Positions 25,440 through 43,624 of a DNA stretch of 64,000 bases are shown here, piece after piece. A program made the position numbers and the translations under genes. Positions within the stretch are counted from its first letter, which is position 1; every line of letters starts with the position of its first letter. Source of the DNA: Varibaculum prostatecancerukia. GTDB taxonomy: Bacteria; Actinomycetota; Actinomycetes; Actinomycetales; Actinomycetaceae. The notes below the pieces were generated by a model. That model was not told where the DNA came from and ran no database searches. It worked only from the letters and a program-made list of their open reading frames with translations. Location: positions 310,001 through 374,000 of the forward strand of contig NZ_OW968402.1 in assembly GCF_943169825.2 (NCBI RefSeq). Direction: 5' to 3'.

Positions 25440-25867
25440 CAGGCACCACCAGCCTCAGCCTCAGCTGCGACGAGCACCGCGTTGGCCTGCTCCACCGTCA
25501 ACTGCGAGAGCTTAGTGTGCCCATGCTCGCGGATCTGGGATTTGATGAAGTCGCTCAAGCCCGAGCGTGCATAATTCGCCAAGACTGCACGTACCTGCTC
25601 AATTGGCAACAGCTCAACGATCGGCTCGGGCTCGACTGTGGTCTGTTCTTCGTCGGGTTCGTCTTCGACGAGTTCTGTATCCAGAATGTCCTCATCCGCA
25701 TAGGGGCTTTCGAGGCGCGCTGCCGTGATTGGGCGCTCGCCCGGCATTCCGGCGTGATCTTCGATACCGTCCCACGCGGCCTGCTCGACAATCGCGCTGA
25801 GGCGAGTCACATCCTCAGCAATCGAGTTCAACAGCCCAATAATGCTGTTCGCAGTACTAATATTCAT
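25439..25867 (-). CDS. uncharacterised early phage protein
   Basis: A 142-residue acidic protein: a helical N-terminus (ANSIIGLLNSIAEDVTRLSAIVEQAAWDG), a low-complexity acidic centre (DTELVEDEPDEEQTTVEPEPIVELL) and a C-terminal helical part (IEQVRAVLANYARSGLSDFIKSQIREHGHTKLSQLTVEQANAVLVAAEAEAGGA). The C-terminal domain resembles small domains found in phage early proteins, but no name is assigned. It overlaps its neighbours at both ends by ATGA, so it is co-translated with the DUF2800 gene. Confidence 0.7.
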   Translation of the reverse strand: MNISTANSIIGLLNSIAEDVTRLSAIVEQAAWDGIEDHAGMPGERPITAARLESPYADEDILDTELVEDEPDEEQTTVEPEPIVELLPIEQVRAVLANYARSGLSDFIKSQIREHGHTKLSQLTVEQANAVLVAAEAEAGGA

Positions 25868-30474: not shown

Positions 30475-30587
30475 TTTGAATGAGATTTGGTGGCGAGGGC
30501 TGATTGGATGTTCGGGGGAACTGGTCAACGGGTTTTCGGGGCGAATTGCTCAGAGGGTTGAGTAGTCGATTTTGCTTTTGTCGTTTT

Positions 30588-30634
30588 TGAGTGGGTGAGA
30601 TTGATATTTCGGCTGCTGAGTGGGTGAGATTGAT
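30588..30634. repeat. 18-bp direct repeat at the left edge of the AT-rich island
   Basis: TGAGTGGGTGAGATTGAT occurs at 30588-30605 and again at 30617-30634. The repeat lies where base composition changes from chromosomal to AT-rich, 61 bp before the VOC gene. It could be a recombination scar or a regulatory site. Confidence 0.6.
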
Positions 30635-30694
30635 GAAGGCTGATGAAAAGATCGAATGCGAGGAAGAACAAATTTGAATTCATAGGAGGTAACG

Positions 30695-31123
30695 ATGAAC
30701 AAGATTACTTGTGTTTGTTTAGGTGTCAAAGATATGGAAAGGTCAATCAAGTTTTATAGAGATGGATTAGGATACAAAACTGATTGTAGAGAAGATAATC
30801 CGCCGGTATGCTTTTTTGATACTCCGGGAACTAAGTTTGAACTGTTTCCTTTGGAGCAATTAGCAAAAGATATTGATGAAAATAATCCACCAAAAGGAAG
30901 TGGATTTTCAGGAATTACCTTGGCTTACAATGTTGAACATAAAGAAGATGTAGATACCGTAATTGAATTAGTAAGAAAAGCAGGTGGAAAAATCGTAAAA
31001 GAGCCACAGGAAGTTTTCTGGGGTGGATATCACGCATATTTTTCAGATTTGGATGGATACTATTGGGAAGTATCATGGGGTTCAGATTTTCAATTTGATG
31101 AAAATGGATTGCTGAAATTTTAA
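30695..31123 (+). CDS. VOC-family (glyoxalase/bleomycin-resistance-like) protein
   Basis: A 142-residue VOC-fold protein: CVCLGVKDMERSIKFYRDGLGYKTD, VCFFDTPGTKFELFPL and the final metal-site strand YHAYFSDLDGYYWEVSWG. The family includes lyases, dioxygenases and antibiotic-binding proteins, and the substrate here is unknown. AGGAGGT precedes the ATG. The AT-rich codon choice (AAA, GAT, TTT) differs from the flanking genes and points to a Firmicutes source. Confidence 0.85.
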   Translation: MNKITCVCLGVKDMERSIKFYRDGLGYKTDCREDNPPVCFFDTPGTKFELFPLEQLAKDIDENNPPKGSGFSGITLAYNVEHKEDVDTVIELVRKAGGKIVKEPQEVFWGGYHAYFSDLDGYYWEVSWGSDFQFDENGLLKF

Positions 31124-31142
31124 GAGTGCGTGGGAAAAGATT

Positions 31143-31484
31143 ATGGCATCTTCAAAGGACTACCTGGACTTCATTTTAGAACAGCTCGCTGGTTTGGATG
31201 AGATTTCTCATCGGGCAATGATGGGTGAATACATTCTCTATTGCCAAGGGAAAGTCTTTGGCGGGATTTATGACGACCGCTTTTTAGTTAAGCCAACCAA
31301 ATCAGCCATAGCAATGATGCCGGATGCAAAGAAAGAGCTGTCCTATGAAGGAGCAAAAGCAATGCTCCTCGTAGAAAATGTAGATGATCGAGCGTTCTTG
31401 CAAAACTTAGTTCAGGCGATGATCACGGAATTACCGGCGGTTAAAAAAAGAAAACAGCTGATGGGTGGTAGAGAGATAAATTGA
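31143..31484 (+). CDS. TfoX N-terminal domain protein
   Basis: A 113-residue single-domain protein: YLDFILEQLAGLDEISHRAMMGEYILYCQGKVFGGIYDDRFLVKPTKSA, then VENVDDRAFLQNLVQAMITELPAVKKRK, matching the stand-alone TfoX-N/YjhE-like family. TfoX proteins regulate competence in Gram-negative bacteria, but the role of this short Firmicutes form is unknown. A decayed copy of its C-terminal half lies at 36541-36700, about 5 kb away. Confidence 0.85.
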   Translation: MASSKDYLDFILEQLAGLDEISHRAMMGEYILYCQGKVFGGIYDDRFLVKPTKSAIAMMPDAKKELSYEGAKAMLLVENVDDRAFLQNLVQAMITELPAVKKRKQLMGGREIN

Positions 31485-31503
31485 AAGTTGGAGGTGAATA
31501 CGC

Positions 31504-32190
31504 GTGAAACGAATCTTCTTTGTCGAAGATGATTTGAGTTTAATAAATGGCCTGTCTTTTGCAATTAGGAAACAGGGCTATGAAGTTGATGTTGCTCGGA
31601 CAAGTGTAGAAGCAGCAAATCTATGGAAGCAGGACAGGTATGACTTAGTCATATTAGATGTATCTTTGCCGGATGGCTCTGGTTATGATCTGTGTAAAAG
31701 AATCCGACAGACTTCAAGGATACCGATTATTTTTTTGACTGCAGCAGATGAAGAAACCGATATTATTATGGGCCTTGATATAGGTGCTGACGATTATATT
31801 ACGAAGCCTTTCCAATTGGGCGTATTTTTATCAAGAATTAATGCTCTCCTCCGAAGATGCGAGAACTTCACTCAACTTAATACAGAGTTGAAATCTAATG
31901 GAATAACGGTGCATCTATTAAGGCATGAAGTTTACAAGGGTGATATTCCTATTGACTTAACAGCAGGAGAATACAAATTGCTATGCCTATTTATGGAAAA
32001 TCCCAATATAGCATTATCGTCAGAGCAGATTTTAAGTAGACTCTGGGATTCTGAAGGAAACTACATCAACACTAGCACCCTAACGGTATACATCCGAAGA
32101 TTACGAACTAAAATTGAAGACAATCCAGATTGTCCACAAAAGATCATCACTCTTCGTCGTGTGGGTTATAAGTGGAATGTGATAGCATAA
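31504..32190 (+). CDS. OmpR/PhoB-type response regulator
   Basis: A 228-residue protein, receiver then winged helix. The receiver has FFVEDD acidic pocket, VILDVSLPDGSG with phosphoacceptor Asp52, FLTAADEETD and DDYITKPF. The Trans_reg_C domain has DLTAGEYKLLCLFMENPNIALSSEQILSRLWD and LTVYIRRLRTKIEDNP. It starts at GTG 31504 behind GGAGGTG. With the kinase and ABC exporter downstream it forms a Bce-type or VraR-like resistance module that probably senses a peptide antibiotic and turns on the transporter. Confidence 0.95.
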   Translation: MKRIFFVEDDLSLINGLSFAIRKQGYEVDVARTSVEAANLWKQDRYDLVILDVSLPDGSGYDLCKRIRQTSRIPIIFLTAADEETDIIMGLDIGADDYITKPFQLGVFLSRINALLRRCENFTQLNTELKSNGITVHLLRHEVYKGDIPIDLTAGEYKLLCLFMENPNIALSSEQILSRLWDSEGNYINTSTLTVYIRRLRTKIEDNPDCPQKIITLRRVGYKWNVIA

Positions 32191-32198
32191 GGCGCACG

Positions 32199-33239
32199 AT
32201 GAGATTATTGGCAAACCGAAGAATTAAAAATCTCTTTATTTATATTCTGTTGATTATTGTTGGTTTTTCATCATTTTCTATTGCTGCTGTCATTATGCAG
32301 TGGGAGTTCGCAGTATTACATATATTGATCTCTACAATTTTAATGGGATTTTTGATTTTAATTTTTCTGTATTTCTATTTTAGAAAACAGGAGAAAATTA
32401 TGGAAAATGCAGTGACACAGATACGAGAGTATATTTCGGGTAACCACAATGCCAGAATTAGCTGCGATGATGAGGGTGAACTGTACCAGCTATTCCATGA
32501 GATAAATACTTTGGCTACAATCTTAAATTCTCGCGCGGAAAATGAGGAAAAAGCAAAGATTTCTTTAAAAAATACTATATCAAATATTTCTCATCAACTA
32601 AAAACACCTCTTGCAGCGCTGAACATATACAATGGAATTCTAAAAGAAGAAACAGTGAATTCCCCGACAATTAAAAAATTTACAGATCTTTCTGAACAAG
32701 AGCTCTACCGTATAGAAATTCTCGTCAAAAATCTTTTAACGATTGCGAAATTAGATGCTGGAATAATTATTTTTGACAAAAGTAAACACTATATTGATGA
32801 CATAATGAAGCAAATCCAGCAACGTTTTGCATTTCAAGCACAGCAACAAAATAAAATTTTAAATTTTATTGAACACGATACTGCTACCATCCTGCTTTGT
32901 GATCCATATTGGCTTATGGAGGCAATCAGTAATGTTGTTAAAAATGCTTTGGATCATACAACAGCAGGAAGTACCATCGAAATTTCATGGCGCAAGTCAT
33001 TATCAATGGTGCAAATTATGATAAGAGATAACGGAAGTGGCATACACTCAGAAGATCTCCCCCACATTTTTAAGCGATTTTATCGTAGCCGCTTTTCAAA
33101 AGATACACAGGGTGTTGGATTAGGACTTCCTCTTACGAAAGCGATCATAGAAGCTCATAGCGGAACAATAGAAGTAGATAGTGACTTAGGCAAAGAAACA
33201 ATATTCATAATCAATTTATTGATTCCTACAAATTTGTAG
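32199..33239 (+). CDS. sensor histidine kinase with two membrane segments
   Basis: A 346-residue protein: two N-terminal helices (LFIYILLIIVGFSSFSIAAVIMQW and ILISTILMGFLILIFLYFYF) joined by a very short outside loop, a HAMP-like linker, H-box ISNISHQLKTPLAAL (His132), N-box MEAISNVVKNALDHT and G-box RDNGSGIHSEDLPHIF ... GVGLGLPL. A short loop is typical of intramembrane-sensing kinases that work through an ABC transporter. ATG 32199 was chosen over the upstream in-frame start, which lies within the regulator gene. Confidence 0.92.
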   Translation: MRLLANRRIKNLFIYILLIIVGFSSFSIAAVIMQWEFAVLHILISTILMGFLILIFLYFYFRKQEKIMENAVTQIREYISGNHNARISCDDEGELYQLFHEINTLATILNSRAENEEKAKISLKNTISNISHQLKTPLAALNIYNGILKEETVNSPTIKKFTDLSEQELYRIEILVKNLLTIAKLDAGIIIFDKSKHYIDDIMKQIQQRFAFQAQQQNKILNFIEHDTATILLCDPYWLMEAISNVVKNALDHTTAGSTIEISWRKSLSMVQIMIRDNGSGIHSEDLPHIFKRFYRSRFSKDTQGVGLGLPLTKAIIEAHSGTIEVDSDLGKETIFIINLLIPTNL

Positions 33240-33311
33240 GAAAAAAGTCATTTAGCTGTAGGGTTCACGTAATACTCTTTCTATATGAAAGCAGAAAGGG
33301 GTGTTAATACA

Positions 33312-33995
33312 GTGAGCTTACTAGAAGTGCAAAACCTATCAAAAACCTATGGAAATGGTGAGACTGCTGTTCATGCATTAAAAGATGCTACTTTTTCCGT
33401 TCCAAAAGGTGAATTTGTTGCTGTGGTTGGTGAATCTGGCTCTGGCAAAAGTACTCTACTGAACCTGATTGGCGCGTTGGATACTCCAACTTCAGGCAAA
33501 GTGTTTATTGATGGCAAGGATATTTTTGCCATGAAAGACCGTAACTTGACTGTATTTCGTCGTAGAAATATCGGCTTTATTTTTCAAAGCTTCAACTTGA
33601 TTCCAGAGTTAACAGTCGAACAGAATATCATTTTCCCAGTGTTGTTAGATTATCAAAAACCCGACAAAAATTTTCTGGAAGATTTGCTTTCGATATTAAA
33701 ACTGTCTGCGCGGCGCGATCATCTTCCCAATCAACTTTCTGGTGGACAGCAACAACGTGTTGCTATTGGACGCGCGTTAATTACACGCCCTGCTCTTATA
33801 CTAGCAGACGAGCCAACTGGAAATCTGGATACTCAAAACACTAGTGAAGTCATTGCTTTCTTGAAAGAAGCATCCAGAAAATATGAGCAAACAATTATCA
33901 TGATTACTCACAGCAAAAGCATATCCCAGGTCGCAGACCGCATTTTACAGGTATCTGATGGTGCATTGACAGATTTTGGGAGGTGCCGTGAATGA
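33312..33995 (+). CDS. MacB/BceA-type ABC transporter ATP-binding protein
   Basis: A 227-residue protein with Walker [11 protein letters not shown]-loop [13 protein letters not shown], signature [15 protein letters not shown], Walker [13 protein letters not shown] and H-loop MITHSKS. GTG 33312 was chosen because GGGG lies 11 nt upstream and [13 protein letters not shown] is the family start. An ATG at 33285 has no ribosome site. It overlaps the permease by 4 nt. It would energise the FtsX-type permease for peptide antibiotic resistance. Confidence 0.93.
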
Positions 33996-35800
33996 AAAGT
34001 TATCTCAGTCTTATCCCGATCTCAGCCAAAGCGCACCACAGACGAAATCGCATGACACTATTTTGCATTGCTCTTGCAGTGTTTATGGTAACTGCTGTAT
34101 TTAGCATGGTCGAAATGGGCTTACGAATGGAACAAGAAAGACTGTCTAGTAAGCATGGGAGTATCTCTGTTCTAGATATTCTTACCAGCTCAATGGGACA
34201 AACTCTTCTTTCTGTCGCGACTGTTCTGTTTCTGCTAATTTTAATTGCAGGCGTTTTGATGATTTCCAGCACAATGAGTAGTAGCGTCGCACAAAGAACC
34301 AAGTTTTTTGGAATGATGCGCTGTATTGGAATGAGTAAACAGCAGATTACACAGTTTGTCCGTTTGGAAGCTTTAAGCTGGTGCAAAAAGGCTATACCTA
34401 TCGGACTTGCCTTAGGGGTTGTTGCTACATGGATACTATGCGCAGCCTTACACTTTATAGTGAGAGGAGAGTTCTCTCATATTCCTCTTTTTGGCATCAG
34501 CGTTTTGGGTATTGCCAGCGGTATTATTTTAGGCCTAACTACTGTACTTATCGCTGCGCATGCTCCGGCAAAATGCGCTGCAAAAGTATCGCCTATTACG
34601 GCAGTATCAGGAAATGCAAATCATGAGAAAACAACACGTTGTGCATCATATATAAGATGTAGAAAAATTGAAGCGGCTCTCGGGATTAATCATGCAATCA
34701 CTAGGAAAAAGAATCTGTTCTTGATGACAAGCTCTTTTGCACTTAGCATCATCTTATTTTTAAGTTTCTCTGTCCTAGTCAGTTTTGTTAACTACCTGAT
34801 ACCTCAGTCAGCTGCCACATCAGATATTGATATCGCAAGCACTGATGGCAATTCTATTCCTAAAGAACTGCTCGCATCTATTCGTAGAATGGATGGGGTC
34901 AAGGAAGTTTACGGTCGTCGCAGTGCATTTGATATTCCTGCCAAAGTGAACGGCGATAGTCACTCTCTGAGTACAGTTGATTTGATTTCTTATGATAATT
35001 TTGATCTGCAATGTCTGAAAAAAGACAGTGCTTTAAAAACTGGGAGCGATCTATCAAAAGTATATGGAGACAGCGACTCTGTTTTAGCAACATCTGACCA
35101 GAACAGCACATGGAAAATCGGCGATACGGTTCAAATTGGAGAGAAAACTCTCACAATAGCTGGATTGTTAAAGAATGATCCATTTAGCGATAACGGATTG
35201 ACAAACGGAAAACTCACGTTGATTACCTCTGATGATACGTTTGTTCGTCTAACAGGAAATGAAAAGTATTCTCTCGTGTTAATACAGACAACAGCAGATG
35301 CTACGGATAAGGATATTCAGACAATCCATAATTATGTAGGTAAGGCATACAGCTTTCAGGATAAGCGCAACGAACGCACCACGGGAACCTATGTAGCTTT
35401 TGTCTTTTGTATCTATGCGTTTTTGGCTGTTATTGCACTAGTAACAGTGATGAATATCATCAATAGTATTTCCATGAGCGTATCTGCTCGCACAAAACAG
35501 TATGGGATGATGCGTGCAGTAGGAATGGATGGACAGCAAATGACGAAAATGATTATTTTTGAAGCGCTCACTTATGCCCTTTTAGGGTGCCTATCCGGTT
35601 GTGTTTTTGGTTTGCCAATTAACAAAATGCTGTACGATTTCCTTATTATTCAGCATTTTCCATCTGCGGTATGGCAATTCCCAATTCTCTCTCTAGGCAT
35701 CATTCTTTTGTTTGTCTCACTAGCGACAATTGCAGCTGTATATTCCCCGACAAAGCGGATTCGTGATATGTCAGTTACTGAAACGATTAATGAACTATAG
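33992..35800 (+). CDS. FtsX-type ABC transporter permease
   Basis: A 602-residue protein with eight predicted membrane segments in two FtsX-like units. The first unit has TM helices at about 22-42, 72-92, 135-155 and 168-190. The second has TM helices at about 245-265, 470-495, 530-550 and 570-595. Between helices 5 and 6 lies a large outside domain (about 270-465). The FtsX motifs RTKFFGMMRCIGMSKQQITQ and RTKQYGMMRAVGMDGQQMTK stand in both units. It is shorter than BceB but has the same plan. It is probably the export or target-release channel of this two-component-linked transporter. Confidence 0.9.
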   Translation: MKSYLSLIPISAKAHHRRNRMTLFCIALAVFMVTAVFSMVEMGLRMEQERLSSKHGSISVLDILTSSMGQTLLSVATVLFLLILIAGVLMISSTMSSSVAQRTKFFGMMRCIGMSKQQITQFVRLEALSWCKKAIPIGLALGVVATWILCAALHFIVRGEFSHIPLFGISVLGIASGIILGLTTVLIAAHAPAKCAAKVSPITAVSGNANHEKTTRCASYIRCRKIEAALGINHAITRKKNLFLMTSSFALSIILFLSFSVLVSFVNYLIPQSAATSDIDIASTDGNSIPKELLASIRRMDGVKEVYGRRSAFDIPAKVNGDSHSLSTVDLISYDNFDLQCLKKDSALKTGSDLSKVYGDSDSVLATSDQNSTWKIGDTVQIGEKTLTIAGLLKNDPFSDNGLTNGKLTLITSDDTFVRLTGNEKYSLVLIQTTADATDKDIQTIHNYVGKAYSFQDKRNERTTGTYVAFVFCIYAFLAVIALVTVMNIINSISMSVSARTKQYGMMRAVGMDGQQMTKMIIFEALTYALLGCLSGCVFGLPINKMLYDFLIIQHFPSAVWQFPILSLGIILLFVSLATIAAVYSPTKRIRDMSVTETINEL

Positions 35801-35842
35801 CTCTATGATTGTCACATAGAAACTTTTTATAGGAGGCATATT

Positions 35843-36351
35843 TTGAAAGTCGCTTTTTTAGATAGAGATGGAACGTTAAATAAAGATTATCCTGATAATG
35901 AATGGTTTGATAAAAGGACTCCCGAAATCCTACCAGGCACAGTGGATGGACTAACTTATTTAAAAGAAAAAGGATATGAATTAATAATTATTACCAACCA
36001 ATTATAGGGGAAGGGTATATTTCATATTCACATTATGAAGAATTTAATGATAAGTTAATAGCCGCATTGAGGAAAGAAAATATAGAAATATTAGATATAT
36101 TTCGCTGCCCACATAGCAGGAAAAGTAAATGCAATTGCCATAAACCCTCACCGGGTTTGATCGTTCAAGCTCTTAATAAGTATCCTGATATTGATTTGGA
36201 AAGCTCTATTTATATTGGAAATTCTATATCTGATTTAGCTTTAGCCAATGAATTTAGGTTAGAATTTTTTAGGTTAGAATTCTATGGTATAAATTTTAAT
36301 TGCAAAAATCAATTTGATAGTTTATCTCAAATTAGAAAGTATATTCTGTGA
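35843..36351 (+). pseudogene. HAD-type D,D-heptose bisphosphatase-like gene, frameshifted
   Basis: TTG 35843 with AGGAGG upstream starts KVAFLDRDGTLNKDYP, the nucleophile motif of HisB-N/GmhB-type HAD phosphatases. After IITNQ the frame meets TAG (36005-36007). In the next frame it continues IGEGYISYSHYEEFNDKLIAAL and then CPHSRKSKCNCHKPSPGLIV (zinc loop) to SIYIGNSISDLALA. The 509-nt span (3n+2) fits one lost base. It is the last AT-rich gene and is probably inactive. Confidence 0.8.
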
Positions 36352-36540
36352 AGTAGATAAGCAGGTATTTTTAAAATGTACTACACACAGCAAATTCAAC
36401 ATATAGGCTGGAACTATTATGAGAATATAAAAGTTCCTGTATCATAAAAACTAGGGATTAAAGAATTGGATTCGTCAAGTCCAAATACCGAGATCCTCTT
36501 CTTCTTTATGCATAAATTTGCATGGTGTGTTCAATGCCTA

Positions 36541-36700
36541 CAATGATGCCGGATGCAAAGAAAGAGCTGTCTTAGAAGGAACAAAAGCGAAGCTCCTCAT
36601 AGACAATATAGTTGACCGCGAGTTCTTGCGAGACTCAGTTCAAGCGATGGTTTCAGAATTACAGGCGCTAAAAAAGAAGCATACTAGTAAGAGTCGATAA
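36541..36700 (+). pseudogene. decayed second copy of the TfoX-N C-terminal half
   Basis: The sequence ATGATGCCGGATGCAAAGAA and much of what follows matches the 31143-31484 gene from its codon 57 on, with many substitutions and an internal TAG. The open frame (DREFLRDSVQAMVSELQALKKKH) still resembles the original C-terminus. It marks a duplication or recombination at the right end of the island. Confidence 0.75.
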
Positions 36701-36743
36701 TGCAGTAATTGACTTGAGTCGGCTATCTTTTAAATCTGATTGT

Positions 36744-36848
36744 TTATGCATTCATCTCCACCCCTGACTTGAACTGCACCTTGATTCTCCCCTCCTCGAT
36801 GGTAATGCGCTCGATGAGGCGACCAACGAGGGCTTCGTCAAAGCCATC
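36744..36848 (-). pseudogene. C-terminal tail of a serine recombinase
   Basis: On the minus strand the last 34 codons read DGFDEALVGRLIERITIEEG then RIKVQFKSGVEMNA and a stop, which is the standard C-terminal end of large Tn/ICE-type serine recombinases (FDE.L...LIERI.I...KI.V.FK.G). The rest of the gene is missing, as the sequence beyond 36850 reads as an ABC permease on the other strand. It identifies the AT-rich island as a former integrative element. Confidence 0.75.
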
Positions 36849-36849
36849 T

Positions 36850-37412
36850 TTTTTGGAGCTGCAATAATCGCCTACATTTGTGCCGAGTGGGGTTCTGGTT
36901 TTATCTATACCACTTTCGGGGCAAGTCGTCGACCTGCAAGGTTTATCGCATCTAAACTTTTTTGGCCACTAGCGTTTTCGCTATCAACATTCTTTGTAAT
37001 TCTAATGGCGATTATTCCTCTCGAAGGCATCTTAGTATCACATGACACGCCATACACGATCACTCTAGCTGATGCTACAGTTTGGAGGCAGATCCTAGTC
37101 GCGTGTTTCAATTTGGCTACTAGTGTGTTGTTTGCGGGTGGATTGGCGTTTATCTTTCGCCATGCTGCTTCCGCGATCGGATCATATATTGCGATAAGCC
37201 TGATAGCTCCTATTGTATTTGGTCTTATACCGCTAGACATTTCAAAGACAATCAGTTCTTGGCTGCCCAACAATGTTTACGGATACTTGATTACACAAGA
37301 TCCTGTGATGACAGGCACATTGAACTATCCACTCCTATTTTGTGCTGCTATAGCGTATCCCGTGATTTCGGTTTTGGTTGGATTTGTTAGATTCAAAAGG
37401 AACGTAGTCTAA
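36850..37412 (+). pseudogene. 5'-truncated ABC-2 type permease
   Basis: An open frame that enters at about 36850 without a start codon: IFFGAAIIAYICAEWGSGF, then TTFGASRRPARFIASKLFWPL and several membrane helices (LVACFNLATSVLFAGGLAFIF, IAISLIAPIVFGLIPL, LLFCAAIAYPVISVLVGFV), ending in RFKRNVV. The pattern FSSG/xxGASRxxxFxxxKL is typical of the conserved end of ABC-2 permeases of the lantibiotic-immunity type. It was cut where the recombinase tail now ends. An ATG at 37005 might still allow a partial product. Confidence 0.72.
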
Positions 37413-37705
37413 GCCGGTGGTAGCGATTAAGAGCTTGCGGCGTGTTCTCCGCATGAAAAGTTCTCACTTGGGTGGTTTTAATCCGGTTACAAATTGCCTG
37501 GAAAATCAGAACGACCTGCTACTATGTTCCGCGACCGCAGCAGAAACCAGCGCTGCCAAGGAAAAACCGCCCTATACGACAAAACAAGAGAACACCCATT
37601 TTGGTACAGAGTGCTGGGCGGGTACAAAAGTCAATAGCCTGGGTACACAAATTTTTATTTCGAGAGAATATTCTAAAGCAGTGAACTTTAGATTTACCAG
37701 ATTGG

Positions 37706-38197
37706 TTACACGTTTTTATACCACAAGTTTTCCGCTCTTTTCTTGGCATTCTTCCACTGTCTCGTTGAGAAATTAAGATCAATTACGCGACGTGCGATCA
37801 GATCCATAGTCTCCCTATTTCTTTTCTCAGCATCGCTGCGGTGGCAAGCATCTGAGCTTCCCACCAGCGTTGCAAAAGCTCCCACTATAAAAGTTAGTAT
37901 TGTGATGATGGCTTCTTTTGACAGCTCTCCTAAGAAGGAAAAGAATGCTGGAATACTGTCGACGGCGCCTTCAGAAAAAGCAACGAAAAGACATACCCCC
38001 AGTAGAACCAAGCCGAGAACAATCTTCAAAATTGAACTTTTAACCCGTGATTTACGAGTCTTGGTAACAACATTTTTTCTGTGACACCATTCGTACGCTA
38101 GGTCATCAATATCAAAGAGGTCATATATGGATTTGCCACCAATATTTTGATTGAAAATGTTTCCATCGCCAGAGTTATTTATGTTATTGATGGACAT
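37706..38197 (-). CDS. two-transmembrane protein with NNSGDGNIF leader
   Basis: A 163-residue protein: N-terminal MSINNINNSGDGNIFNQNIGG, a short basic linker (RKNVVTKTRKSRVKSS), two membrane segments (ILKIVLGLVLLGVCLFVAF and AIITILTFIVGAFATLVGSS) and a basic C-terminal helix (AEKRNRETMDLIARRVIDL). The ATG at 38197 has GGAGGAAG before it. Small two-TM proteins with an NN-repeat leader are often membrane-killing effectors in conflict systems, but none is recognised here. It sits alone in a remnant-rich region. Confidence 0.6.
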   Translation of the reverse strand: MSINNINNSGDGNIFNQNIGGKSIYDLFDIDDLAYEWCHRKNVVTKTRKSRVKSSILKIVLGLVLLGVCLFVAFSEGAVDSIPAFFSFLGELSKEAIITILTFIVGAFATLVGSSDACHRSDAEKRNRETMDLIARRVIDLNFSTRQWKNAKKRAENLWYKNV

Positions 38198-38742
38198 TTT
38201 ATGACTTCCTCCAAAATATATCTGACTGCTAATATAGCTTATACAAGCATCTATTCTTGCCCCAAGATAAACTGTCAACGAGCTTTGGGTTTGATGAAAT
38301 ACCAGACAATTGGCCAGGTAATGTGGATTATCGCCAGTCACGACCGTTGGCTGATTGACCACTGGCACGGTCATCGCCTTAATCTAAATCCTGTACTCCC
38401 GTCAGCTTCACCACGAGAATGACAATCCGTCACGGAAAGTGAATACAATGATGCCGTCTGCGTCTACTACGGAAGAATCAATGATCCGGCAGAAGAATGT
38501 GGAGCAACCTTTGCGCGGGAGGAGTAACTTTTTCGCGGCACGGCTTTCGCGGGGTAAAGCCCGCTCCAAAATTCGTAGACAGATAATCCATTAGTGATGT
38601 GCTCCGATCATTTGCGACCAAACCAATGCCTCCCGGCTCAGGTCCGTAATCGGCATTTTGGCTTGTTATCAGGCGGAAAAGCCTGCTTGCACCGTCGCCC
38701 TCGAGCCGAACATTTTGTATCATCTTCAGCAGCTACATAACT
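38198..38742. other. 545 bp without a clear gene; possible remnant of a host gene
   Basis: Small open stretches on the plus strand look protein-like, for example DEIPDNWPGNVDYRQS near 38296 and VCVYYGRINDPAEECGATFAREE ending at 38527, in different frames and split by stops. I read them as pieces of a decayed gene, but no family is recognised. No RNA or repeat signal was seen. Confidence 0.4.
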
Positions 38743-38785
38743 AAAATGTTGGAGCCCCAGGTTTATCCTGGGGCTCCAACATTTT
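38743..38785. terminator. very strong bidirectional terminator
   Basis: A perfect 19-bp stem: arms AAAATGTTGGAGCCCCAGG and the complement CCTGGGGCTCCAACATTTT, with a 5-nt TTTAT loop. The arms begin and end in A/T runs, so it works on both strands. It separates the remnant region from the structured region and iron-transport operon. Confidence 0.85.
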
Positions 38786-38789
38786 ATAA

Positions 38790-38975
38790 GCTGAGGGAAT
38801 CGAACCCGCGAGGGCTGGCGCGGGGAGGTTGCGAACGCGGGTTGAGCATTCGCCCGCGCCAGTGGTTTTAAAGTGCGCTGCGGGTCTGGCACGGTAAAAG
38901 CACTCCGGGGACCCCGTGACCGGCTTCGCTGGTCAAGCCCCTCTCGTATCTTTTACCGGCCGCGCCCCTTGCTCA
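38790..38975. ncRNA. strongly structured intergenic region, possible RNA
   Basis: Two large foldable blocks: CTGGCGCGGG/CCCGCGCCAG closing a 28-nt loop (about 38816-38864), and CGGTAAAAG...CTTTTACCG enclosing GACCGGC-TTC-GCTGGTC (about 38892-38958). On the minus strand a T-arm-like GCGGGTTCGATTCCC stands beside the terminator. The region lacks an open frame of note. It may be a small RNA or a tRNA-like att-site remnant. A complete tRNA or tmRNA could not be built. Confidence 0.35.
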
Positions 38976-39195
38976 CACCGTGAAGTCAGATTCCACGGCA
39001 CCCATTCGGATAAAACCTAGCCCCCGCACCTCGGGGTCGAAGTTCGTGAAAGCATGTACAAAACCCTAAAAGCCCTAGCAAAACCACTAAAATCAGCGGC
39101 TAATGCCCATTTTGTGTATCTTTTTCCGGGCGCGTCGGTTTTTATTAGTGCGGGTGAGGAAACGGTGCGCAACACGAAGTGTTGCTGGCACGGCG

Positions 39196-39225
39196 AACCC
39201 GAACGGTGCGAAAACCGTTCGGGTT
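39196..39225. terminator. hairpin upstream of the iron-transport promoter
   Basis: A perfect 12-bp stem AACCCGAACGGT/ACCGTTCGGGTT with a 6-nt loop GCGAAA, followed by TT. A second small hairpin (GCAACAC-GAA-GTGTTGC) lies about 10 nt before it. Together they insulate the following operon. Confidence 0.6.
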
Positions 39226-39264
39226 TTCGGTATTAACCCGAAATGCGTGAGGTATGTCAGATTA

Positions 39265-39293
39265 TTGACACCAGGGAAGGAACATGCTTTAAT
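39265..39293 (+). promoter_or_regulatory. sigma70 promoter for the iron ABC operon
   Basis: TTGACA (39265-39270), a 17-bp spacer and TTTAAT (39288-39293), a near-consensus promoter. The 5' leader to the ATG at 39405 is about 105 nt. I saw no clear DtxR/IdeR-type box overlapping it. Confidence 0.65.
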
Positions 39294-39404
39294 CAAGTAT
39301 TAAATCGAATGATTGAATATTCTTTGGTTAGAGTCCACCACCGCACCTCAACCACTCTTTGCTCGGATGTGGTGCGACCCAAATTTAGAAAGAAAGTCGT
39401 GGTT

Positions 39405-40580
39405 ATGAGCTTTAGCGTACGAAAAATATTTTCTAGTCTCGTTGTCAGCGTAGCAATGATCTGTTCACTGGCCGGCTGCGGTGCTCCGGGAGGGAGCTCT
39501 TCTGCCTCTAAATCGGATCAGGCAACAACATCCGCGTCCCAAGGCGTAACTATCACGGATGTTACAGGCAATACTGTTAAATTGAAGAAACCGCTTGAGA
39601 AGGCGGCTATTCAATTGTCGGGCTCGGGCGGACCTCTCTTGACGATGGCGGCTCTCGACCGAGACAACTACACTTCTAAGATTGGCGCAATGGACAAGGG
39701 GCTGGAATCTAACCGCCAAGACCTCTGGTCACTCTTACTCAAGGCCAACCCGGAGTTAGCTGATATCCCGAAAATTGGTGATGCAACAAAGGATCAGCTC
39801 ACCGCCGAGCAATTGCTGGCGGATAATGTCGATGGAATCATCGCTCCTGTTACCCAAAAAGCAAAGATGGACGTTATCGCTGATAAATCAGGGTTGCCAG
39901 TTATCTACATTGATTATCATGGGCAAGACCTGAAAAACCATATCAAATCCACGAAGATCATCGCGGAGGCAACCGGCCTAACTAAGAACGAAAAAGCAAT
40001 CACAAAGTTCTATTCTGACATCGTCGGGGACATAGAAAAGCGTGCTGCGAAACTTAAAAAATCTGAATCAGTGTATTTTGAAACTACGTCGAGTGGGCCA
40101 AAGGAATTTGGAAACACCTATGGCTCAGGAACGATGTGGGGTGCAATCCTCGAGGATGTTGGCGCCGATAACATCGCAAAACAGTTTCTCGATGCAAAAG
40201 ATGCGCAACCGCTTTCCGCTGAACAAGTGCTGGTAAGTAACCCAGACAAAATTATCTTCTCGGGTTCCCTGTGGGCGGATCAGCCGGATTCAGTGAAGAT
40301 GGGTTTCTCCGTGTCGAAGGAAGAAGCGCGGGCATCTATCGCCCCCTTCCTGGAACGTGACGGCTGGGACAAACTAAAGGCAGTAAAGAACAAAGAGATA
40401 TATGCGATCGGCCATCCGCTGACCCGTGACATGCTTGACTTTTACTCCTACGCAAGACTTGCCAAACTGTTCCATCCAAAGGAATTCGATGATCTCGATC
40501 CGGATGCGTTAATCAAGGAGTACTTCGACAAGTTCATGCCTATTAAGTACCAGGGGACATGGTTTATCAAGTATGAGTAG
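39405..40580 (+). CDS. iron-siderophore ABC transporter substrate-binding lipoprotein
   Basis: A 391-residue FecB/PeriBP-type lipoprotein: signal peptide with lipobox LAGCG (Cys25), a Ser/Ala-rich spacer, VTITDVTGNTVKLKKPLEKAAI, then AEQLLADNVDGIIAPV, IDYHGQDLKNHIKSTKIIAEATG, PLSAEQVLVSNPDKIIFSG and YAIGHPLTRDMLDFYSYARLAKLFHP. It captures ferric siderophore or heme-like iron complexes outside the cell. The start at ATG 39405 gives a proper signal peptide. The longer frame upstream lies inside the leader. Confidence 0.88.
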   Translation: MSFSVRKIFSSLVVSVAMICSLAGCGAPGGSSSASKSDQATTSASQGVTITDVTGNTVKLKKPLEKAAIQLSGSGGPLLTMAALDRDNYTSKIGAMDKGLESNRQDLWSLLLKANPELADIPKIGDATKDQLTAEQLLADNVDGIIAPVTQKAKMDVIADKSGLPVIYIDYHGQDLKNHIKSTKIIAEATGLTKNEKAITKFYSDIVGDIEKRAAKLKKSESVYFETTSSGPKEFGNTYGSGTMWGAILEDVGADNIAKQFLDAKDAQPLSAEQVLVSNPDKIIFSGSLWADQPDSVKMGFSVSKEEARASIAPFLERDGWDKLKAVKNKEIYAIGHPLTRDMLDFYSYARLAKLFHPKEFDDLDPDALIKEYFDKFMPIKYQGTWFIKYE

Positions 40581-41568
40581 TGCGAAAGTGCGGCATCTTC
40601 CGCGCGGGCTGTGGATCGTACTTGCCGCTTTAGCGGTCATCGCTCTGTTTGTGGTTGACCTTTGTGTTGGCCCTGCGAAGATCACACTCTCGAATCTGGC
40701 CGTGGTGTTTGACCCTAATACAGTCGAGCATATTGCATTCTTCCGAATACGCATGCCCGCAGCTCTCATGGCAGTCGGGGTGGGCTTAAGTCTTGGGTTG
40801 GCCGGCGCGGTAATGCAAACAATATTGAACAACCCGCTGGCCTCTCCATTTACTCTCGGTGTTTCTTCCGCAGCGAGTTTGGGGGCGGCAATTGTATTTG
40901 TGATGGCAGTGCCGATGGTGTTCGTCACCGGTGGCGCGCTACTTGTGGCGCTCCTTTCGGTGTTCGTGATCTTCGCGGTGGGAAAGTACATTGCGATGAG
41001 CAACTCTTCGCTGGTACTCGCTGGTATTGCGCTGAATTTTCTATTCGACGCATTTTTGTCGTTGATTCAATACCGTGCCTCAGAAGAAAGCCTTTCGTAT
41101 ATTGTCTTCTGGACCATGGGTGGCCTCACTCGCGGCTCGTATACTCAAGGCTGGATAATGCTTTCAGTGTTCGTCATAGTATTTGCCGTGCTCTTGCGCA
41201 ATGCATGGAATCTCACAGCGTTGAAGTTCGGTGAAGCACGTGCGGATGCGCTTGGGGTGCCAGTCCAACGAGTAAAAATTGTGTCGCTGATATCGGCATC
41301 AGTGCTCACAGCACTGGCGGTGAGTTTTTGCGGGAAAATTGGTTTTATCGGGCTGGCGGCGCCGCACTTGGCACGAAGGCTCGTGTCTGAGGATCAGCGA
41401 TTCTATTTGACCGGTTCTGCGATTCTTGGCGCAATGATTCTGCTTTTCTCTTCGATTGTTTCCAAGCTGATTGTTCCCGGTGTGGTTGTGCCAATCGGCA
41501 TCATCAGTTCCATTATCGGCATCCCATTCTTGGTGTATGCCCTAGTTAGCCAGCGGCGTCAACGATAG
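40573..41568 (+). CDS. FecCD-family iron ABC transporter permease
   Basis: A 331-residue permease with about nine membrane segments and FecCD signatures: RIRMPAALMAVGVGLSLGLAGAVMQTILNNPLASPFTLGVSSAASLGAA, AGIALNFLFDAFLSLIQ, the ALGVPVQRVK loop, FIGLAAPHLARRLVSEDQRF and GIISSIIGIPFLVYAL. It forms the channel of the iron uptake system. The gene overlaps the binding-protein stop by 8 nt. Confidence 0.93.
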   Translation: MSSAKVRHLPRGLWIVLAALAVIALFVVDLCVGPAKITLSNLAVVFDPNTVEHIAFFRIRMPAALMAVGVGLSLGLAGAVMQTILNNPLASPFTLGVSSAASLGAAIVFVMAVPMVFVTGGALLVALLSVFVIFAVGKYIAMSNSSLVLAGIALNFLFDAFLSLIQYRASEESLSYIVFWTMGGLTRGSYTQGWIMLSVFVIVFAVLLRNAWNLTALKFGEARADALGVPVQRVKIVSLISASVLTALAVSFCGKIGFIGLAAPHLARRLVSEDQRFYLTGSAILGAMILLFSSIVSKLIVPGVVVPIGIISSIIGIPFLVYALVSQRRQR

Positions 41569-41577
41569 GTGTAGAAC

Positions 41578-42330
41578 GTGATTAATGTCAGTGATTTCTC
41601 GTTTAACTATGGCAGTCGCCGAATCATCGATGGTATTAGTTTCCAGGCGAAACCTGGTCAGGTCACCGTATTTATGGGCCGCAATGGCGCTGGGAAAACC
41701 ACGCTGATGAAGGCGATTGTGCATTCGAGCAGGGAGAAGCCGCGCCCGGGCACGGCAAAGTCGATTGAGGCCGTCGGTACGATGTCATATCTCAACCAGC
41801 ATACCGAGGCCGATTTGCCGTTTTCGGTGTTCGAGACCGTGTTGATAGGAAAGGTAGCGAAACTCGGGTTGCGGACTGCGCAACAGGATGTTGACGATGT
41901 TAACGAGATCTTAGACATGCTTGAACTGCAGCCCCTCAAAAACGTTGCCATCAGAAACCTGTCCGGCGGTCAACGTCAAAAGGTATTCATAGGCCAGGCA
42001 ATGGTGAAAAACCCTGATGTCCTTCTTCTTGACGAACCTACGTCAGCACTCGATCTAGAAAATCAGTACCGTATTCTGCAGCAGATAAAATCACTAACCG
42101 TGGCTCGGCACATCACAACTGTGGTTACCCTGCACCAGATCGACCTCATTGAGCGTTTTGCGGATCACATTGTCGTCCTCCACGAAGGCAAGATTTATGC
42201 GGAGGGCGCGCCCAACAAGGTTTTTACGAAGCAACTCTTCAGGGAAGTTTATACGGTGGACGCAATATTGGAGTCAGTTAAAGACCGGATTCTTTTCGGG
42301 TTCGACCTCTTGGACGACCCGCATAAGTAG
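41578..42330 (+). CDS. iron-siderophore ABC transporter ATP-binding protein
   Basis: A 250-residue FepC-type ATPase: Walker A GRNGAGKTT, Q-loop YLNQH, signature LSGGQRQKVFIGQAM, Walker B VLLLDEPTSALD, and a His-switch TTVVTLHQID. It starts at GTG 41578, 9 nt after the permease stop. About 230 bp without a gene follow before the convergent YeiH gene. Confidence 0.94.
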   Translation: MINVSDFSFNYGSRRIIDGISFQAKPGQVTVFMGRNGAGKTTLMKAIVHSSREKPRPGTAKSIEAVGTMSYLNQHTEADLPFSVFETVLIGKVAKLGLRTAQQDVDDVNEILDMLELQPLKNVAIRNLSGGQRQKVFIGQAMVKNPDVLLLDEPTSALDLENQYRILQQIKSLTVARHITTVVTLHQIDLIERFADHIVVLHEGKIYAEGAPNKVFTKQLFREVYTVDAILESVKDRILFGFDLLDDPHK

Positions 42331-42562
42331 GCCACTCAGCAGCACACCTCCAAGTGTTGCCAGAATTAGCGTTAACTGAGCAAGTTACATGGCCAACCCT
42401 GGCCAAAAATCATCACCTCGCCAAGTGTGTAACTTCTTCTTCTGGATAATCTGGCGCTCAACAAGGAAGTGCTCACTAGCTAGTTTTCAACATGTTTGCC
42501 TGCCCGAAACGATGGTGATCCGTTCCGTATCGCTTTGGAACCAATGCACCACCAGGTGTTTC

Positions 42563-43624
42563 CTACTCGACGAATACAAGTACCGTCCCTAGCGAGACTG
42601 CGGCGATTAGGACACTCAGGATTATTCCGAGGATGAGGGCGCGCCCTCCGGATTTTATAACGTTGCGTAAGTTTACCCCCGCCCCCATTGCGCCCATCGC
42701 TACGGTGAGCAACAAAGTAGCTACTGTGCCCCCTAGGATACTGAAAACGTTATTGACAGTGGAAATACCGGCAAACACTGAGGCCAGCGCGACTGCGACC
42801 AGAAACCCCACAACAAATCCGGGAATCAGCGGCGGGCGCTTGCCAGAGCTAGCTTTTTGTGCCTGTTCATGGCGTACTTGCACCACGCGCCGCTCGATAA
42901 TCCCCACAATCGCCACTACGACCGCCAGGCAGGCCACGCGCCCAAGCTTGGTGGCCGTGGCCAAATCAGAGATCGCCGGGTCGTAAATATTTGCTGCCGC
43001 CACTACCTGGCCGACCTCATGAATGGAAGCACCCAGCCAGACGGCAGCTTGGGTGGGGGACAGGTGCAGTGCGTGGGCGGCAGCCGGCAAAGCAACGAGG
43101 GAAATCGTCCCAAATAGGGTAACGCAAGCGATAGCGGTGGCGACCGCGTCATCGGCGTCCTCGCGACTGCGGGCAGACACCACTGGGGAGATACCGGCAA
43201 CGGCAGACGCTCCACAAATAGCCGTACCCGAGGTAGTGAGAATCCCAGTGGCGTGACTGACCCGCATAAAGTAAGTCAGCAAGTAACCCGCCACCATAGT
43301 TACCGCAACCGCGCAGATGATAGTCACAATCGCGCCAGTACCTAGCGCGGCAATAGCCGGTAGCGATAGTCGAAAACCAAGCAGCACCACCCCGGCGCGC
43401 AGAATAGTCTTCGCGGAAAAAGCGATTCCGGGTTCGCAGACAGCCGGAATTAGCTTAGTGTTACGGACTGCTACCCCCAGCAGGATCGCCACCAGCATCG
43501 ATGACAGCAGGGGGATAAACAGGTTAATCAGCCAGGCGATACCGGCGACTACGCACGCGTAGGCTACTCCCGGCAACAAGCGTTTAAAGTTATTCCAAAA
43601 GTCCACTTGCCAGGTATACCACAT
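42563..43624 (-). CDS. YeiH/UPF0324 family membrane protein
   Basis: A 353-residue integral protein with about ten membrane segments and conserved UPF0324 blocks: SSMLVAILLGVAVRN, AKTILRAGVVLLGFRLSLPAI, LTTSGTAICGASAVAGISPVV, VWLGASIHEVGQVVAAA and MGAMGAGVNLRNVIKSGGRAL. Members are predicted sulfate or thiosulfate exporters, so the substrate here is open. It faces the iron operon tail to tail. Confidence 0.93.
   Translation of the reverse strand: MWYTWQVDFWNNFKRLLPGVAYACVVAGIAWLINLFIPLLSSMLVAILLGVAVRNTKLIPAVCEPGIAFSAKTILRAGVVLLGFRLSLPAIAALGTGAIVTIICAVAVTMVAGYLLTYFMRVSHATGILTTSGTAICGASAVAGISPVVSARSREDADDAVATAIACVTLFGTISLVALPAAAHALHLSPTQAAVWLGASIHEVGQVVAAANIYDPAISDLATATKLGRVACLAVVVAIVGIIERRVVQVRHEQAQKASSGKRPPLIPGFVVGFLVAVALASVFAGISTVNNVFSILGGTVATLLLTVAMGAMGAGVNLRNVIKSGGRALILGIILSVLIAAVSLGTVLVFVE

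Follow-up and report, generated by a model that had tools for sequence, protein, structure and literature searches.

The structured, gene-free stretch at positions 38743-39225 of the window is the far edge (right junction) of a foreign island of about 52.5 kb, which lies between a tRNA-Ala gene and what is most likely its stop signal. The window, i.e. the whole stretch of 64,000 nucleotides that was analysed (G000:C1:310001-374000), belongs to a 2.21-Mb single-contig genome, and the tRNA-Ala(GGC) gene (C1:296149-296224; L121:6150-6223) is located about 52.5 kb to the left of the stretch. A single joint explanation, the right junction of this island followed by a pile of repeat modules specific to the genus, is very probable. 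Five such modules are found to the right of the junction: a hairpin, element A, a complete element B, half of an element C and module D. The features are as follows (positions of the window).

38466-38739: right end of the island; genome G004 also has it (from L114:12885), adjoining a truncated serine recombinase gene and ending at the same junction
38740-38744: right junction, ACTAA, the presumed crossover point
38742-38786: perfect inverted repeat of 20 bp around a 5-nt loop, most likely the terminator that was moved away from tRNA-Ala(GGC)
38788-38808, minus strand: inverted remnant of a tRNA-Ala 3' end that includes the T-arm
38795-38807: T-arm, GGGAATCGAACCC on the plus strand, GGGTTCGATTCCC on the minus strand
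38795-38869, minus strand: element A, proximal half only; full copies extend as far as a copied tRNA-Ala 3' end in direct orientation
38877-38968, plus strand: element B, complete, with outer stem P1, GGGG/CCCC stem P2, stem P3 and nearly invariant internal loops
38993-39027, plus strand: element C, 3' half only, ...CGGATAAAACCTAGCCCCCGC
39137-39227, plus strand: module D, two small hairpins, of a type that belongs to arrays near tRNA 3' ends
39169-39185: hairpin, read by eye
39196-39225: hairpin, computed
39137-42555, plus strand: iron/siderophore-type ABC transporter module, bordered by D on the left and located between C and the gene at 42563-43624
42563-43624, minus strand: flanking gene (Pfam Cons_hypoth698), which identifies the orthologous locus of V. 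cambriense DSM 15806

Fold and gene content of the stretch

The original prediction had named a terminator hairpin, two large foldable blocks, a T-arm-like sequence on the minus strand and two more hairpins, and all these features are present. On the minus strand, positions 38743-39225 fold with an overall z of -7.9 (0/100 shuffles). The hairpin 38742-38786 reaches -10.8 and -10.7 on the two strands, block B (38877-38970) -3.4 and -3.0, and the segment that covers both last hairpins (39145-39231) -3.3 and -4.7; block A (38788-38873) reaches -3.8 on the minus strand and only -1.4 on the plus strand. The segment 39000-39145 stays at chance level (z 0.2), and therefore the description "highly structured" holds overall but not for the whole of 38743-39225. 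As had been stated, there is no coding frame of note: no gene-like frame was found across the stretch, which is overlapped only by ORFs of 52-84 aa (the floor of the list being 50 aa).

A search of the genome with its own sequence 38700-39260 gave 25 matches, including the window itself and the self-match of the hairpin, and delimited four blocks: A (38795-38869), B (about 38877-38972), C (38993-39044) and D (39167-39191). These block types recur in 6/6 Varibaculum genomes and in 0/53 of the others searched.

The island at tRNA-Ala(GGC)

The tRNA-Ala(GGC) gene is adjoined by two large serine recombinase genes (L121:6405-9208), both encoding Resolvase, Recombinase and Zn-ribbon domains, and then by prophage genes that continue into the window. 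The same tRNA gene is followed in V. cambriense DSM 15806 (G003) by the recombinases (84%) and by the prophage (88-95%, up to window position 25614), then by different cargo, a D module, the series hairpin-A-B-C and the gene of window 42563-43624. As this D module lies between cargo and hairpin, the right end of the island differs across species. In a third Varibaculum genome (G005), tRNA-Ala(GGC) leads straight into hairpin and A with no island (L234:12821-13021); this island-free form comes from another species, whose left flank is about 75-86% identical, so that a precise loss of the island is indistinguishable from its absence. A further arrangement is found in G004 (L114), where tRNA-Ala(GGC), transporter genes, a truncated recombinase gene, the sequence of window 38466-38739, a hairpin and a full A succeed each other within 5 kb, and L114:13328 holds the tRNA 3' end a second time; by blastn, window 38466-38869 matches L114 12885-13283 at 92%. 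The insertion border suspected from the sequence thus exists, the right junction of an island that starts just 3' of tRNA-Ala(GGC) being at 38740-38744.

At this junction, ACTAA matches ...CTCCACTAA, located directly 3' of tRNA-Ala(GGC) at the left junction, and ACTA(A), i.e. 4-5 bp, is the only sequence common to both junctions. Uninterrupted forms are found at other tRNA-Ala loci, as tRNA-CTCCACTAAAATGTTG in L084 and tRNA-CTCCACTAAAATATTG in L091. Directly 3' of the tRNA, the left junction carries a hairpin with a T-rich tail, CCTGCTGG...CCAGCAGGTTTTGTTTT (read by eye), which is likely a replacement terminator for the tRNA. This probable replacement, together with synteny, makes the hairpin 38742-38786 most simply the tRNA's own terminator, carried off by the insertion.

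Similar hairpins, with perfect stems of 13-20 bp, are found directly 3' of tRNA-Ala at five loci (L081, L082, L084, L087 and L091), all in the order tRNA-Ala, hairpin, inverted T-arm, A; at two others (L090 and L097), a D-type module separates the tRNA from the hairpin. A strict search for hairpins of A units found an uninterrupted inverted repeat of at least 9 bp in 10/20 pattern matches; the remaining 10, which include a tRNA-Ser, have none. The "19-bp terminator" of the original prediction is real as a hairpin, its stem being a perfect one of 20 bp; as no T run follows, its role as a terminator rests on its position after tRNA genes. A consensus terminator scan of 38300-39500 returned one terminator-like site (1.6 expected by shuffling) and did not pick up the 20-bp hairpin, probably because of this missing T run, so that termination is deduced from context.

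The following series of events would account for the locus. Before insertion, the hairpin terminator and element A would have directly followed tRNA-Ala(GGC). An island of prophage type, carrying two large serine recombinases on its left, would then have inserted between the tRNA 3' end and the hairpin, at the 4-5 bp ACTA(A) match. The left end of the island would have brought the likely new terminator, and the old hairpin and A would have moved to its far end, now 38742-38869. The distal half of A would have been replaced by elements B and C, which are dispersed hairpin repeats whose stem pairing is kept by compensatory change. Finally, the D-bordered iron-transporter module would have landed between C and the next gene. 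The two serine recombinases are the putative agents of the insertion; they may differ from the enzymes that made the junction.

The region 30500-38500 of the window, which ends at the island border, is AT-rich (GC about 0.30-0.44 vs mostly 0.46-0.60 elsewhere). It carries genes for a response regulator and an FtsX-type permease and, by eye, for a sensor kinase and an ABC ATPase, a set that resembles a peptide-sensing transporter set. This AT-rich region (30.5-38.5 kb) could be a separate, second insertion instead of belonging to one island.

Module D and the iron transporter

In V. vaginae, D-type repeats extend from the 3' end of a tRNA-Lys gene (L124:1512-1673), between tRNA-Lys and a B element; the genome of the window has none at that position (L009). 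The iron transporter module that D borders on the left (39167-42555) is 98% identical to G004 L115 8532-11920, at a different locus; left of tRNA-Ala(GGC), the two genomes are about 80-84% identical. The contrast between these identities suggests that the module was likely acquired by a recent transfer. It is absent from the locus of V. cambriense DSM 15806 (L119), at which only about 15 bases separate the match to 38752-39026 from that to 42561-43623. The V. cambriense genome also carries a second, similar Cons_hypoth698-type gene (L238:4512-5556).

A short motif around CTAATGCCCATTT recurs at borders of repeats or modules, at 39097-39115 of the window and near 12010 in L115, where it adjoins a GGTATTAACC sequence.

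Two families of covarying repeats

A covariance model of B gave 117 matches in 6 of 151 genomes of the family, all from Varibaculum (17-22 each), and 0 matches in the 145 other genomes. Among the 117, 14 are long variants of 140-155 bp; these (G000:C1:143083-143237 and 13 others) display the same outer and inner strands around a larger, different centre. Element C has at least 25 covariance-model matches in each of the six Varibaculum genomes and a single match outside the genus, in G158, which belongs to another genus of Actinomycetaceae. This intact copy (L232:2602-2713, G158:C7) lies near a contig end and, by eye, the start of an IS3-type transposase gene; it would result from either transfer or contamination. 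An exact 24-mer of B was found in 12 stretches, from V. cambriense, V. vaginae and one record labelled Tissierella sp. Marseille-P2918. This record (FQLW01000006.1; L122, L128 and L131) carries Varibaculum-specific repeats, and its organism label seems wrong.

Stem pairing covaries strongly in both families. In the alignment of B (53 of 54 rows, the truncated duplicate L041 being left out), 19 of 31 pairs have changed on both sides, in 130 cells, a value as high as which occurs in 0/500 shuffles; with slid partners, the number of both-side cells does not exceed 26. For C, the alignment of 30 of the 64 copies found contains 34 pairs, of which 23 have changed on both sides (105 cells; 0/500 shuffles; at most 22 cells with slid partners). 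A large part of the internal loops of both elements is invariant. The original prediction had named a lack of conserved base pairs in relatives among the findings that would speak against it; this is not the case, because blocks B and C covary strongly.

The strand on which these structures would act is another matter. Mismatched pairs amount to 43 G-T vs 31 A-C in B and to 55 G-T vs 114 A-C in C, counts that disagree, so that no strand is claimed. They were obtained from the best 103 of 104 rows of B and 123 of 150 rows of C, reduced to distinct ones (86 and 119), in columns with at least 60% Watson-Crick pairs, most of the rows left out being matches to the opposite strand of palindromes already included. 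Hairpins that are held perfect in the DNA itself would be consistent with these counts too.

Neither B nor C matches an Rfam family, and 16 loci with copies of A, B or C gave only 3 matches at gathering score, all to tRNA. As far as searches reach, B and C are undescribed, strongly covarying families: no description was met in the titles and abstract beginnings of the papers listed for repeats of Varibaculum or for very small, palindromic or compensated repeats. In several gaps, C is accompanied on its far side by another C-like variant, GGGGCGGATTTATGCCG...AAATCCGCCCC (L130:797, L228:1302, L208:1582 and L048:1493).

Genomic placement and possible mobility of B and C

Genes around the elements were called by a simple ORF score. 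Among 111 distinct element-bearing intergenic regions, taken from loci selected for holding elements (hence not independent samples) and with related regions of several species counted separately, 63 are convergent, 43 tandem and 5 divergent. The 57 two-element regions comprise 42 with tail-to-tail elements, 15 with elements in the same direction and 0 in the head-out order. In the tail-to-tail pairs between convergent genes (n=28), the median distance from stop codon to element is 57 nt. An ortholog in another species' locus exists for 79/111 regions, each with at least one element-bearing ortholog, here again with related regions counted separately. One ortholog row is devoid of any element (L176 vs L029), and element composition often differs between orthologs in the raw, uncleaned matches.

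It is possible, if rather doubtful, that B and C, perhaps together with A, serve as functional RNA modules of 3' ends, i.e. terminators or mRNA-end elements under selection, the B of the window being a stray copy. The preponderance of convergent and tandem regions, the short distance to stop codons, the covarying stems with nearly invariant loops and the recurrence in orthologous regions all speak for such modules. However, the tail-to-tail order is also found in 11/18 two-element tandem regions, so that orientation belongs to the doublet and not to the genes; the wobble pairs favour no strand common to B and C; and the counts come from loci chosen for their elements, with related regions counted apart. 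Lone elements are nearer to the sense gene in only 12/20 convergent regions, and sense vs antisense is 11 to 7 in tandem regions. A gene-sense orientation of B and C, also considered, was thus rejected as weak for single elements once partner elements were recognised and regions counted.

B and C are dispersed through the Varibaculum genomes. In V. vaginae (L132), a B is nested inside a C that is intact in G004 (L071), which argues for mobility. No target-site duplication was seen by eye in the flanks of the copies that were read. An unlikely proposal would unite both aspects: B and C would be a new, genus-bound kind of hairpin with near-invariant internal loops and free-running compensated stems, which would multiply in tail-to-tail doublets without RAYT and be retained at the 3' ends of genes because its RNA or DNA structure is functional; this would combine mobility and gene-end function in one 100-bp fold.

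The proposed small RNA and known classes of palindromic repeats

The original prediction had offered a regulatory RNA as one explanation. It is very improbable that the stretch encodes one, for example a small RNA made of block A and the T-arm and ended by the hairpin on the minus strand. Block A does fold on that strand and runs into the strong hairpin. However, A is incomplete here, ending at 38869 where full copies reach the tRNA copy; a scan of 38300-39500 for sigma-70-like promoters, the only type scanned, found none (0.8 expected by chance); and in relatives the hairpin lies directly 3' of tRNA-Ala genes. The Rfam covariance search gave 0 matches at gathering score within the window, the sub-cutoff matches to microRNA and sRNA families being mostly to the perfect hairpin. 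B and C, for their part, are dispersed repeats and not one RNA gene, and their stems display no consistent preference for G-U over A-C.

B and C could also be REPINs or REPs moved by a RAYT transposase, which is most improbable. In PMC3116915, 93% of 430 REP doublets are inverted pairs, and PMC3733652 describes GTAG/CGTC REPs as units of 20-40 bp, one end of which is tagged GTAG or CGTC. Like the REPINs and the GTAG- and CGTC-REPs so described, B and C are palindromic, dispersed, intergenic and found as inverted doublets. They differ in their size of about 92-110 bp, in their nearly invariant asymmetric internal loops and in their outer ends, which covary instead of being constant. Furthermore, no Y1 transposase was found in the genus, Y1_Tnp (PF01797) occurring in 0/6 Varibaculum genomes and in 5/14 of a control set.

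MITEs share with B and C a size of about 100 bp and inverted ends. This identity was rejected: B and C have no constant terminal inverted repeat, and their outer stems vary with compensation.

Element A and the T-arm

The minus-strand sequence GGGTTCGATTCCC agrees letter for letter with the T-arm of tRNA-Ala(GGC) in the same genome. Element A, to which it belongs, has other copies in the same genome (C1:2109496 and C1:922933), and A-type matches occur in 6/6 Varibaculum genomes, in a search whose query included 33 tRNA bases, so that rows on query positions 1-38 represent tRNA only. Full forms are found at L081, L082, L083, L088 and L093; in full units (e.g. L081 and L082), the terminal direct copy of the tRNA-Ala 3' end matches the isoacceptor located just upstream. 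A follows tRNA-Ala in relatives, which makes the T-arm part of a repeat that contains a tRNA-Ala 3' end copied in inverted orientation. The fusion A-B-C' also occurs in V. cambriense DSM 15806 (L119), before the same flanking gene, and at a different place in V. vaginae, after tRNA-Ala(CGC) (L064).

The proposal of an att-site remnant is only partly right. The tRNA-like piece is an inverted tRNA-Ala 3'-end copy that sits in A, which is present after the tRNA without any island in G005, and the island junction itself is the 4-5 bp match beside it. An attachment site in a tmRNA or tRNA gene, considered from the T-arm alone, was rejected, the tmRNA gene being intact elsewhere and the similarity in the window covering 13 bp only; the idea was retained for other A copies alone.

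That the piece is a decayed tRNA or tmRNA gene, as had been proposed for a tRNA-like gene, is hardly credible: its T-arm is that of tRNA-Ala(GGC) and other A copies (L015, L085, L102 and L108) have tmRNA-type ends, but it comprises only the T-arm and acceptor-like sequence, with no apparent 5' acceptor, D-arm or anticodon arm (a missing body that refutes a standard tRNA), ARAGORN detected no tRNA or tmRNA within the window and Rfam was likewise negative, intact tRNA-Ala and tmRNA genes exist elsewhere in the genome, and in relatives the same piece belongs to a repeat and is found in inverted orientation next to an intact tRNA gene.

A tyrosine integrase gene of this genome adjoins an A element (L014:1756-2916 and 1501-1575, respectively), whose inverted tRNA-Ala(CGC)-type end could be the attachment site of this integrase. 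In L105, the start of a similar-looking integrase gene directly follows tRNA-Ala(CGC) itself.

Comparison with tRNA-linked islands and CIMEs

Like other genomic islands and prophages of tRNA genes, a class that includes integrative elements with serine recombinases and accretion at tRNA genes, this island lies directly 3' of a tRNA gene, has its recombinases next to it and carries cargo that varies across species. It differs from them in several respects: the tRNA is split from its hairpin at a 4-5 bp match, with no long duplication of the tRNA 3' end; a likely replacement terminator was brought in; and, at its distal end, the island is bordered by a repeat module that occurs in island-free form as well.

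CIME-type remnants are flanked by copies of att sites. In the same way, full A units are enclosed by two tRNA-Ala 3' ends in direct orientation (L081 and L082); unlike such remnants, they span only about 155-250 bp, display no genes and include an inverted copy of the tRNA 3' end as well.

Concluding remarks

The locus displays in unusual detail an event of an ordinary type, the border of an island linked to a tRNA gene. It points to an island that inserted between a tRNA gene and its hairpin, brought a likely replacement terminator and carried the old hairpin to its far border. The locus also reveals two well-sampled repeat families of Varibaculum with strong covariation (117 matches of B, and at least 25 of C in each of the six genomes). 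This sampling allows a direct test between RNA signals of gene ends and DNA parasites whose hairpins are repaired during copying.
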